This document shows, piece by piece, positions 7,515 through 64,000 of a DNA stretch of 64,000 nt; the stretch's first letter is position 1; each line of letters starts with the position of its first letter. Source of the stretch: Ectobacillus sp. JY-23 (lineage in GTDB: Bacteria > Bacillota > Bacilli > Bacillales > Bacillaceae_G); NCBI RefSeq assembly GCF_023022965.1, contig NZ_CP095462.1, forward strand, positions 3,576,001-3,640,000, in the 5' to 3' direction. The position numbers were made by a program, and so were the translations under genes. The notes under the pieces were generated by a model. That model saw only the letters and a list, made by a program, of their open reading frames with translations. It was not told the origin of the DNA and did not search any database.

Positions 7515-8381
7515 ATGGCCGCTATAAATCAAGTGCAAAAAGTATGGGAAACTACATTCATTGAAACAGAGAGAGGGATTTTTGAGGTATTTATAAAGGG
7601 AACGGGAGAGCCTCTTTGTATTACACATTTATACTCAGAATTTAATCATAGTGGTGATTATTTTGCTGATATTTTCACAAATACTCATCAAGTATTCTTA
7701 GTAAATTTGCGTGGAGTTGGTGGTTCTGAAACTGAAATACACGAAGAACAACTAAGTATGCTAGAAACCGTTAGAGATTTAGATGCTATAAAAGAATCTT
7801 TAGGATTTTCTACATGGCATTTTGCTGGTCATTCTACAGGAGGAATGTTAGGTCTTTTATACGCTATTCATTTTGGTTCTTCCTTGGAATCATTAATTGT
7901 TGTCGGATCAGCAGCATCAAAAGATTATGCACTCATAAAAGAAAGTATCTATAATCCAGAACATCCTCAATTTGACTATATGCAAGAGCTGGCTGAAGCT
8001 TTAAAAGTTCCGAACATAACCTCTGAACAAAGAAAAGAATTATCAATCAATCGAACGAAGTTATCACTTTACAAACCAGAGAATTATCAAATCTATTTCA
8101 ATAAAAATATCCAAAAACGCATGTCAGCTAAACGTATGAATTATTTCTCTAAAGAGTTTCCAAATTTTGATTTGAGATCTCAACTGAAAAAGATAAACGT
8201 TAAAACCTTGGTGATATGTGGAAATTACGATGTTCAATGCCCTATACAATGCTCCCTTGAAATAAAAGAACGAATTGCTAATTCTACCCTCATTCCCTTT
8301 AAAAATAGCAATCATTATCCTTTCTTAGAAGAAGGAGAGAAATTCATAAATACAATTCATGAATTTTATAAAGCGTTATAA
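7515..8381 (+). CDS. alpha/beta-fold hydrolase
   Basis: A 288-residue hydrolase preceded by AAAGGGGGAG. The nucleophile elbow is GHSTGG, following FSTWHFA. The oxyanion region is near THLYSEFNHSG, LRGVGGSE is the conserved strand-loop after beta-4, the acid is likely the Asp in CGNYDVQCP, and the His is in NSNHYPFLEE. The pattern is close to proline iminopeptidase-like and haloperoxidase-like members. There is no signal peptide, so it is cytoplasmic. The substrate is unknown. Confidence 0.85.
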   Translation: MAAINQVQKVWETTFIETERGIFEVFIKGTGEPLCITHLYSEFNHSGDYFADIFTNTHQVFLVNLRGVGGSETEIHEEQLSMLETVRDLDAIKESLGFSTWHFAGHSTGGMLGLLYAIHFGSSLESLIVVGSAASKDYALIKESIYNPEHPQFDYMQELAEALKVPNITSEQRKELSINRTKLSLYKPENYQIYFNKNIQKRMSAKRMNYFSKEFPNFDLRSQLKKINVKTLVICGNYDVQCPIQCSLEIKERIANSTLIPFKNSNHYPFLEEGEKFINTIHEFYKAL

Positions 8382-8432
8382 CTTCCACTTTCGTCAGTTA
8401 TGTTAACTAAAGATGCAAGGAGTACAAAACTC

Positions 8433-8675
8433 ATGGATTACAGCTATAAAGAGTTTCTTGAAGATTTGAACATAGGAAGAGAAGTTGAGTTCATCTATAG
8501 AGATGAAAAATATTATATTGGTTGTGAAACAGGAAGCTTTATGTTTTGGAAATCTTATGACCCAACAAGTGAAATTGCAGGTGAGAATCTGGATGATTTA
8601 CTTGAAAAGGTTAAACTCGATGAAAAGTCAATTAAAGAAGTATGGAGTTTAATCGAGATTTACCATATTTTTTGA
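8433..8675 (+). CDS. small hypothetical Bacillus protein
   Basis: An 80-residue acidic protein (DYSYKEFLEDLNIGREVEF, then a YIGCETGSFMFWKSYD core). The start at the ATG 8433 is chosen because GCAAGGAG ends 12 bases upstream; an earlier in-frame ATG at 8400 lacks a site. It follows the hydrolase by 51 bases and may be co-transcribed. The type is common in Bacillus toxin-immunity and phage-related neighbourhoods but I do not recognise its function. Confidence 0.55.
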   Translation: MDYSYKEFLEDLNIGREVEFIYRDEKYYIGCETGSFMFWKSYDPTSEIAGENLDDLLEKVKLDEKSIKEVWSLIEIYHIF

Positions 8676-8711
8676 ATTATAACTTCGGATAATCTGAATT
8701 ACGTTGCCTGG

Positions 8712-8736
8712 TAGCTCCAAAAGGGGCTTTTTTCTT
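8712..8736 (+). terminator. rho-independent terminator
   Basis: AGCTCC-AAAA-GGGGCT stem (one G-U pair) followed by a T-rich tract, 37 bases after the stop of the small hypothetical gene. The next 300 bases to the rph-like gene hold no gene I can support. Confidence 0.65.
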
Positions 8737-9017
8737 TTTCTAGCCATATTAAAAGGTGCCAAAACTTAATAGCTTCTACTCTTTTTATTCAACAAAATGG
8801 CAATTTAGCTGAATAAGAATATTTAAAGGTGAAGAGTAAAATTTGTCGAATCATACCAATCCACCATCATAAAAGTAGAGGTCAAAATACCCCTAAAACT
8901 CTCATACAAATATGATCTTACATAAAAAAACCTATCCCCCGCCTAACTTAATTATACCATACCAAAAATCACAAACACAGACTGTTTCTCCCCGCCGGCT
9001 ACTGCTACAATCAATAA

Positions 9018-11618
<2,601 letters not shown>

Positions 11619-62563: not shown

Positions 62564-63361
62564 ATGAACAGCCAGTACGAAAACGAAGAAAAGCTAACAG
62601 GGGGAAATGTCTCAAGCGTCTATCGCGCAGGAAATACTGTTCGGCGAGAATGGAAGCCTGATAGTGTTAGGATTCACACATTGCTCAAACACCTGGAAAG
62701 CAAAGGGCTAGATGGTGTGCCAAGATTTTTAGGGATTGATGAAAAAGGGAGAGAGGTCTTATCCTTTATTAAAGGAGAAGCAGGCAACTACCCGTTGAAA
62801 ACATACATGTGGTCAGATAAGGCATTACAAAAAATCGCCAGCCTGCTTCGTCGCTATCATGATGCGGTGCGCGATTTTCCAATAGAAGAAGATTGGCAGC
62901 CGCTTGATAACACGCCGCAGCCATTTGAAGTGATCTGTCATAATGATTTTGCCATCTACAACATTATTTTTCAGAATGAAACACCAGTAGGGTTTATTGA
63001 TTTTGATATGGCTGCGCCGGGGCCAAGACTTTGGGATATCGTCTATGCCCTTTACACCTGCGTTCCTTTAAGCCGGCTGTATCATACAGAAGCAGGCGAG
63101 GCTGTATATTATGACGCGGCAAAGGATGCCGAGCGAATTAAAAAGCGGGTTGCCTTGTTTTTTGATTCCTATGGTATGAAGGGCATAGAAAAAGGGTGTT
63201 TAGAAATGGTATTGCTGCGCGTAGAAGCCTTATGCAAAACCATGCAAAGGAAAGCCAGTGAAGGCGATAAGGCATTTCAAAAAATGATTGACGAAGGCCA
63301 TTATGATCACTATCAAGAAGAAATTGCATTCATTCGCAAGCATGGAAAAGAGTGGCTGTAA
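62564..63361 (+). CDS. aminoglycoside phosphotransferase (APH) family protein
   Basis: A 265-residue kinase-fold protein. The N-lobe is short (EEKLTGGNVSSVYRAGNTVR). The catalytic loop FEVICHNDFAIYNIIFQNET has H-N-D-x-x-x-x-N, and the metal-binding GFIDFDMAAPGPRLWDIVYA has D-F-D. These are the APH/choline-kinase core motifs. Many members are not antibiotic kinases; the substrate here is unknown. AGGGGGAA precedes the ATG. Confidence 0.85.
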   Translation: MNSQYENEEKLTGGNVSSVYRAGNTVRREWKPDSVRIHTLLKHLESKGLDGVPRFLGIDEKGREVLSFIKGEAGNYPLKTYMWSDKALQKIASLLRRYHDAVRDFPIEEDWQPLDNTPQPFEVICHNDFAIYNIIFQNETPVGFIDFDMAAPGPRLWDIVYALYTCVPLSRLYHTEAGEAVYYDAAKDAERIKKRVALFFDSYGMKGIEKGCLEMVLLRVEALCKTMQRKASEGDKAFQKMIDEGHYDHYQEEIAFIRKHGKEWL

Positions 63362-63403
63362 CCGAGCGGGTGCACTTGCCTGCTGGGGACGTATTTATTC
63401 TCC

Positions 63404-63433
63404 TTGACGTAAAAATAGATTCGTGATTATAAT
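63404..63433 (+). promoter_or_regulatory. sigma-A-type promoter of the symporter leader
   Basis: TTGACG at 63404-63409 and TATAAT at 63428-63433 with an 18-base spacer, 30-40 bases before the riboswitch aptamer. Confidence 0.65.
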
Positions 63434-63461
63434 ATCGTATACAAATAAATATTATTTTACT

Positions 63462-63648
63462 CTCTGAAGATAGAGGTGCATCATATCAAGAGTAGCTTGC
63501 TGGAGATGAATGGGATCGATGAAAGCAAGTGAAAGGGATTGTATGCCGAAGTATAGGATATCCATGCTATCGCTTATACTGGGTCAGTATTGAATAAGTG
63601 CTGAACTGTCACAAATAGATATATTTGTGGGGAGCTGTTAAAGAGATG
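63462..63648 (+). promoter_or_regulatory. lysine riboswitch (L-box) aptamer
   Basis: The order of conserved blocks matches the L-box: AGATAGAGGTGC, then CAAGAGTA, GGAGATGAATGGGATCGATG with AAAGCAAGTGAAAGGGATTG, GCCGAAG, a CTGGGTCAGTATTGAATAAG step, CTGTCAC and finally GTGGGGAGCTGTTAAAGAGA closing P1. Its length of about 185 nt is right. In known L-boxes lysine binding favours a downstream terminator; here one lies at 63710-63741. Confidence 0.85.
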
Positions 63649-63709
63649 TTGATGCTTAAAAAACGAGCTATTATTATTTTAGGATGATATAAATGATAAT
63701 TGTTTTCAA

Positions 63710-63741
63710 AAACGCGTGAACATCACTTCGCGCGTTTTTTT
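63710..63741 (+). terminator. riboswitch terminator
   Basis: AAACGCG ... CGCGTTT stem followed by seven T, about 60 bases after the aptamer and 100 before the symporter start. Terminating here when lysine is high would silence the symporter. Confidence 0.8.
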
Positions 63742-63765
63742 ATGTTTTGCGAATGCATCTCCATG

Positions 63766-63792
63766 TTCATGCGCCATCATATGGCGCATGAA
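63766..63792 (+). other. perfect 12-bp hairpin before the symporter gene
   Basis: TTCATGCGCCAT-CAT-ATGGCGCATGAA lies between the terminator and the ribosome binding site (GGAGGGGG). No T run follows. It may stabilise the mRNA 5' end or add a second control layer. Confidence 0.55.
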
Positions 63793-63843
63793 GCACACAA
63801 CAGGAACGGAGCTCTCAGAGAGTAGAATGGAGGGGGTTTTACC

Positions 63844-64000
63844 ATGATAAGCAATGTATTTAAAAATTACAAATCATCGTTTATTTTGCTGTTTGCAATC
63901 CTGCTTGGAGGAATTATCGGCTATATTGCTGGGCCGAAAGCATCTATCGTTAAACCGCTGGGAGATGTATTCCTTAATCTCATGTTTATGATTATCGTGC
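63844..64000 (+). CDS. dicarboxylate/amino acid:cation symporter (DAACS), N-terminal part
   Basis: The ATG at 63844 follows GGAGGGGG by eight bases. The first 52 residues read KNYKSSFILLFAILLGGIIG, YIAGPKASIVKPLGDVFLNL, MFMIIV and run off the window. G-x-x-x-G-x-x-x-G followed by (V/I)KPLG-x-x-F-(L/I)-x-L-(I/L)-x-M is the start of the GltP/GltT/DctP family. It imports acidic or neutral amino acids or dicarboxylates with H+ or Na+. The lysine-type leader suggests a link to lysine supply. Confidence 0.85.
   Translation, partial: MISNVFKNYKSSFILLFAILLGGIIGYIAGPKASIVKPLGDVFLNLMFMIIV

Follow-up and report, generated by a model that had tools for sequence, protein, structure and literature searches.

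Why should a lysine riboswitch (L-box) stand ahead of a symporter of the dicarboxylate/amino-acid (DAACS) type? This question is raised by the end of the 64 000-nucleotide stretch of the Ectobacillus sp. JY-23 chromosome analysed here (hereafter, the window). The original prediction, made from the sequence alone, regarded such a target as unusual and proposed that the carrier either brings in aspartate for lysine synthesis or is itself a lysine carrier. Aspartate and lysine are probably the wrong pair of alternatives to choose between. We propose, at a probability of roughly 55 % for the explanation as a whole, that a lysine-repressed switch of the transcription-attenuation type stands ahead of a secondary importer, and that this symporter supplies LysA with diaminopimelate (DAP), the wall amino acid that is the precursor of lysine, or with a closely related two-headed compound, and is shut off by lysine. 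We infer both the direction of transport and the substrate from gene context.

Known lysine riboswitches precede lysA and permeases. The transporters listed in a 468-riboswitch survey are lysP/gabP, lysW, yvsH and lysXY, plus some putative transporters left unresolved there (PMC5584792); in the part of that source consulted, the list includes no SDF/DAACS carrier, and the words ‘symporter’ and ‘dicarboxylate’ are absent from the text searched, in agreement with the view that the target is unusual. Excerpts of PMC3766115, PMC10213525, PMC2885750, PMC13273304 and PMC9943018 contained nothing on an L-box/SDF pairing. Among the matches listed from the open-access literature, none joined an L-box to an SDF carrier, and none assigned DAP transport to the subfamily described below. 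With the known members of RF00168 the window shares a full-length aptamer and a terminator/antiterminator platform, and its SDF symporter adds a new target class to this riboswitch.

The riboswitch leader

Using Rfam cmscan, the covariance check that the original prediction had suggested, we detected a full-length lysine riboswitch at 63463–63645 on the forward strand (RF00168, 118.3 bits, E 5.7e-31, model positions 1–182 complete; E 8.6e-33 when one genome was searched). This was the sole Rfam match over the gathering score (30 bits) in the whole window, and a chance L-box was ruled out by the 118-bit score. The aptamer would be expected to bind lysine. The chromosome, one contig of 3.89 Mb, carries three L-boxes, the other two being located ahead of lysA and ahead of an APC-type permease. 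By pattern scan, a candidate sigma-A promoter, TTGACG-18-TATAAT, was found upstream of the aptamer (63404–63433, forward strand), with 11 of 12 matches; it is defined by consensus only, and five promoter-like sites occurred in 63300–64000, compared with 2.8 in shuffled sequences.

As predicted, the aptamer is followed by an intrinsic terminator (63708–63739, forward strand) with 13 pairs and a T tail. Because the bare pattern scan was within chance (one terminator found versus 0.5 in shuffles), the case for this element rests on its position, on a folding z-score of −2.28 (2 of 200 shuffles were equally good) and on the finding that a relative has the switch as well. Folding of 63640–63730, without the 3′ half of the terminator, paired 63641–63655 with 63714–63728 on the same strand, so that the latter segment would double as the 3′ strand of an antiterminator; folding of the full leader gave the 13-pair terminator. 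The two structures were mutually exclusive in silico, and the same pairing and arrangement recurred in the orthologous leader of genome G252, in which the L-box drives lysA and then the symporter. The G252 leader shares the core GATGTT/AACATC with the window, and its terminator stem, although of different sequence, still pairs.

Such an OFF design is usual for transcription-terminating L-boxes. When lysine is scarce, the strand at the 3′ edge of the aptamer (63641–63655) would pair with 63714–63728 and block the terminator, allowing the symporter to be made; when lysine is bound, the aptamer should keep 63641–63655, the terminator would form and transcription would stop.

The further perfect hairpin noticed in the original prediction was located at 63766–63792 (two 12-nt arms, 3-nt loop), where it was unique in the window and was found in none of 100 shuffles. 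Within the same post-terminator leader (63758–63836, forward strand; fold z-score −2.61, 3 of 200 shuffles equally good), a 7-nt stretch at 63758–63764, a possible anti-Shine–Dalgarno sequence, can pair with the Shine–Dalgarno sequence at 63827–63836. The anti-Shine–Dalgarno sequence and the hairpin, placed between the terminator and the start codon, may constitute a second, translational layer of control, a role suggested by folding. No comparable perfect hairpin was found on folding the lysA–symporter gap of G252 and G205.

The symporter and its subfamily

The symporter gene starts with an ATG at 63844 on the forward strand and leaves the window at 64000; in the chromosome it is complete as L004:1845-3107, an intact ORF of 420 aa. 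A pseudogene was thereby ruled out, though two near relatives keep only a C-terminal remnant. The only Pfam match of the complete protein was SDF (PF00375, 314.2 bits versus a curated cut-off of 27.9), in common with the DAACS carriers GltP, DctA, SstT, TcyP and GltPh. The family assignment of the original prediction thus stands, and the protein is not a member of the L-box lysine permease families LysP, YvsH, LysW and LysXY, a point that the prediction had left to the complete gene. Its description as GltP/DctA-like did not survive: the identity to E. coli GltP, DctA, SstT and TcyP was 25–30 %, and the NCBIfam scores for DctA, GltP and SstT (82–134 bits) fell short of the cut-offs (308–638 bits) by more than 200 bits. 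Nor did the alignment with E. coli TcyP (30 % over 283 aa) indicate orthology to TcyP. An AlphaFold model of moderate confidence (pLDDT 72.5, pTM 0.65) for homologue L009, 72 % identical to the window protein, was compared by Foldseek with solved structures; among the matches listed were SLC1-type carriers including an ancestral aspartate transporter, ASCT2 and GltPh (probability 1.00, TM 0.53–0.74, rmsd 7–11). On this homologue's model, an SLC1-type elevator fold is predicted for the symporter family.

To build a tree, 193 subfamily sequences were clustered at 85 % identity, and one representative of each of the 101 clusters was combined with the four E. coli carriers; 4 of the 197 loci collected lay outside this pool, namely a remnant recorded twice, a second remnant and an interrupted gene. 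The subfamily formed one side of a branch with 99 % support, and TcyP fell outside it, with the E. coli rows, TcyP among them, flagged as long branches. Judged from the tree and the alignment, the symporter belongs to a distinct DAACS subfamily, marked by a DxPAT motif in TM8 together with H303 and E357. Among the 101 representatives, H303 and D382 were conserved in all, E357 in 100, A385 in 99 and K304 in 82. Compared with GltPh, the subfamily has alanine (A385, preceded by P384) in place of R397, histidine in place of N310 and, mostly, lysine in place of M311, and carries E357 in HP2. In GltPh, R397 is the arginine that holds the side-chain carboxylate of the substrate; the aligned position is arginine in E. 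coli GltP, DctA and TcyP, and glutamate in SstT. We take D382 to be the equivalent of GltPh D394, which binds the substrate amino group.

Judging by their entry titles, solved structures of GltPh R397C contain serine, cysteine or S-benzyl-cysteine, which by analogy would fit a neutral or larger substrate, and GltPh R397A was solved with aspartate bound (5cfy). The loss of the arginine alone therefore leaves aspartate binding possible and does not settle the substrate; A385 bears on the family marks more than on substrate binding. The subfamily also varied at positions 304 and 393, with K304 and N393 in 70 of the 101 representatives (one clade), M304 and D393 in 19 deeper ones, and K304 and D393 in 12. 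These positions align with GltPh M311 and D405, presumably Na+-site positions, suggesting that ion coupling may differ between clades.

Distribution and history of the locus

With the window protein as query, matches were found within its order in 86 of 397 genomes (E ≤ 1e-60; remnants in two of them), within its phylum in 11 of 398 (E ≤ 1e-75) and, in the family to which the Clostridium beijerinckii genome of locus L024 belongs, in 71 of 206 (E ≤ 1e-75). Linkage to an L-box was rare. A home-made L-box profile, which recovered 39 of 39 known L-box loci including those used to build it, found 6 of the 197 symporter loci, i.e. the window and five genomes (G180, G205, G252, G293 and G351; one genus code, 5.1–6.0 Mb), with the reservation that 73 of the 197 loci cover less than 1.7 kb upstream, so that an L-box separated from the symporter by a first gene escapes detection there. 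Likewise, 28 symporter loci from genome contigs showed no L-box at the gathering score, one of them, L034, having only 102 bases before the remnant. The idea that the subfamily is generally linked to L-boxes was therefore set aside. No L-box was found in the DNA scanned at the loci linked to murE, dapA or dapF (13 loci plus those of Tepidanaerobacter, Romboutsia and C. beijerinckii), and neither lysA nor a detected L-box adjoined the symporter in the close orthologues of G313 and G370 (78–79 %). One of the L-box lists used here reaches down to about 109 bits.

In the five genomes, the order is L-box, lysA, a gap of 28–35 nt and the symporter as second gene of the operon; the duplicate records of these five genomes (L088, L089 and L091–L093) showed no L-box because the upstream DNA is short. 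The window L-box was 76.9 % identical to those of G252 and G205, the two operons compared, and 62.8 % identical or less to 19 other L-boxes (62.5 % to the lysA L-box of its own genome), and it clustered with the G252 and G205 L-boxes at 99 % support. The window symporter, in turn, was sister to the LysA-linked symporters (SH-aLRT 100). Given this sister relation and the identity of the L-boxes, the window locus is most simply read as an L-box–lysA–symporter operon that lost lysA, with the L-box-controlled lysA now placed elsewhere.

That lysA is in locus L006 (L-box at 9783–9960, gene at 8090–9406, minus strand). It was 67–68 % identical to the operon copies and 58–59 % identical to their second copies; two lysA copies are present in the genome of the window, as in each of the five operon genomes. 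The second copy in the window's genome (G000:C1:1583576-1584856, L315) was 66 % identical to the L-box lysA, and the surrounding 5 kb contained no Rfam match. The third L-box of the genome, in L005, precedes an APC-type permease (Pfam AA_permease_2), labelled ‘YvsH-like’ in this analysis, which came closest to the NCBIfam models for basic amino acid/polyamine and arginine–ornithine antiporters, below the cut-off of each. Like the window unit, it is a single transporter gene behind an L-box, but AA_permease_2 is unrelated to SDF. Four further SDF carriers are encoded in the genome, one GltP-like (62 %), one SstT-like (62 %) and two TcyP-like (54–55 %; L078 and L087).

In Ectobacillus antri (G001/G799) and Bacillus sp. 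165 (G017/G800), only the last 112–125 residues of the symporter are left (112–115 at L034:1-441 and L033:5001-5345). The break of the L034 remnant abuts a sequence that, by eye, we take to resemble an IS200/IS605-type end. Both of these species have two L-boxes, on contigs other than that of the remnant.

Gene neighbours and candidate substrates

We surveyed the genes within 1.5 kb at the 197 loci, which comprise 164 distinct symporter sequences (including both remnants and the interrupted gene; L032 has no symporter ORF). Neighbours were named by NCBIfam on one to three representatives each, with CysK-like below the cut-offs, and by BLAST for the rest. Per distinct sequence, the genes of DAP enzymes were found as murE (17), lysA (6), dapF (4), dapA (3) and ddh (2), and those of sulfur enzymes as PatB C–S lyase (7), D-cysteine desulfhydrase-like (4) and CysK-like (2). 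Directly adjacent, co-directional genes within 150 nt were murE at 15 loci, lysA at 10 (five genomes, each present twice), dapF and PatB at six each, ddh at four and dapA at three. Of 38 co-directional neighbours within 60 nt, 19 were DAP enzymes, six sulfur enzymes and 13 others; within 150 nt (n=87), the corresponding numbers were 27, 8 and 52.

A DAP enzyme was encoded within 1.5 kb for 29 of the 164 subfamily sequences versus none of 48 other SDF loci (Fisher p 5e-4), a comparison in which all 48 control loci (30 + 18) come from the window's order, the list of DAP enzymes was drawn up after seeing the neighbours and relatives are not independent. Within that order, the proportion was about 6 of 78 versus 0 of 48 (p 0.08; subset picked by locus list). 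Linkage to DAP enzymes thus exceeds that of other SDF genes, with the enzymes chosen post hoc; the other 135 of the 164 sequences are without a listed DAP enzyme inside 1.5 kb. On the tree, the DAP-neighbour state was carried by 17 of the 101 representatives and required at least 12 changes. DAP is a substrate or product of LysA, MurE, Ddh and DapF alike, and the DAP branch begins with DapA; lysine is shared by LysA only. In a Tepidanaerobacter genome and a Bacillota MAG, the order is ddh, symporter and dapF. At three loci from the Clostridium family search (L205, L208 and L211; NCBIfam dapA for L205), dapA lies directly ahead of the symporter, at 33 nt. In the same search, one run (L313, G882 contig 376) combined PatB, lysA, dapF, the symporter and a D-cysteine desulfhydrase-family gene, an arrangement suggestive of a pathway that handles DAP or amino acids of the lanthionine type.

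In our preferred explanation, the symporter would take up DAP, or two-headed amino acids much like it, possibly out of debris of the cell wall, and LysA, under its own L-box elsewhere in the genome, would decarboxylate the imported DAP to lysine; L-box control would then make sense, low lysine leading to DAP import and decarboxylation. Speaking against this explanation are the 135 sequences that have no DAP-enzyme gene nearby, the close orthologues of G313 and G370 with neither lysA nor a detected L-box, the L-box-free murE-, dapA- and dapF-linked loci scanned, and the threonine synthase gene that comes next in the window's own genome. Salvage of DAP as a lysine precursor has been proposed for gut genomes that keep only LysA, with no carrier named in the part of that source consulted (PMC9026213). 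In E. coli, the cystine importers are YdjN (TcyP; an SDF carrier) and FliY–YecSC, and one of the two systems, not specified, is common to DAP (PMC4383340, citing Leive and Davis); in B. subtilis, TcyABC is listed for cystine and DAP uptake (PMC11466899). DAP is two-headed, as cystine is, and these carriers handle the same substrate class as that proposed for the symporter, which makes a single family of two-headed-amino-acid carriers with DAP and sulfur branches plausible. They differ from the window unit: TcyABC belongs to the ABC importers, TcyP retains the arginine and falls outside the subfamily, and none of them was seen here to be controlled by an L-box.

We consider it doubtful, if still conceivable, that the symporter carries lysine itself, which would make it a lysine permease from a family where none was expected, under the same kind of regulation as LysP, YvsH and LysW. 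The part of the survey consulted (PMC5584792) interprets transporters that follow an L-box as lysine carriers, the linkage to lysA also fits lysine, and the acidic E357 in HP2 could meet a cationic side chain; however, the MurE, DapF, Ddh and DapA neighbours share DAP and not lysine, the two MurE representatives matched the DAP ligase model much more strongly than the lysine ligase model (666 versus 369 bits and 594 versus 383 bits), and the genome already has the APC-type permease behind an L-box. A general two-headed carrier, mainly for cystine, cystathionine or lanthionine with DAP as a side substrate, appears unlikely. It would agree with the DAP-sharing cystine system of E. coli, with the gene run in G882 and with the PatB, D-cysteine desulfhydrase-like or CysK-like genes that adjoin the symporter mostly in deeper branches, where they suggest that the ancestral substrate may have been a sulfur amino acid. 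In the clade of the window (K304 and N393; 70 representatives), however, the linked enzyme is MurE for 12 representatives, LysA for one, DapA for one and CysK-like for one, and cystine import would leave lysine control unexplained in a genome with two TcyP-like carriers.

The supply of aspartate for lysine synthesis by a glutamate/aspartate or C4-dicarboxylate carrier, the first proposal of the original prediction, has become very improbable. The SDF match, the best solved relatives, which are aspartate transporters, and the aspartate held by GltPh R397A speak for it, the last of these tempering the weight of the alanine that replaces the TM8 arginine in 99 of 101 representatives; against it stand that replacement, the low NCBIfam scores for DctA, GltP and SstT and the presence of a separate GltP-like carrier. 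Finally, the riboswitch might be a relic, left by accident after lysA departed and without function in symporter control, as the match of the window L-box and symporter to the L-box–lysA–symporter operon and the two remnant-bearing relatives would allow. With an aptamer that still scores 118 bits, an intact antiterminator and terminator, and L-boxes in both relatives that lie apart from the remnants, this appears extremely improbable.

Under the preferred reading of DAP import, extended to the whole H303/E357/DxPAT subfamily, these proteins would be previously unrecognized importers of DAP or other two-headed amino acids across Bacilli and Clostridia, salvaging wall material for MurE and LysA and placed under L-box control in some Bacillaceae-like genomes so that DAP is turned into lysine only when lysine is short; we regard this extension as evenly balanced. 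The subfamily offers a concrete, testable candidate for a DAP carrier in many Firmicutes, and DAP uptake bears on the biology of DAP auxotrophs and on wall recycling in Gram-positives. These findings also suggest that ‘dicarboxylate symporter’ or ‘glutamate symporter’ would be the wrong name for its genes.

As to the immediate surroundings of the window locus, an APH/kinase-fold gene (62564–63361; Pfam APH, 53.5 bits) lies just upstream of the L-box, and the next gene after the symporter, 268 nt on by longest ORF, encodes threonine synthase. Downstream of the symporter region, a SAM riboswitch (L004:7316-7419) precedes genes for an SsuE-like FMN reductase and an NtaA/DmoA-type monooxygenase.
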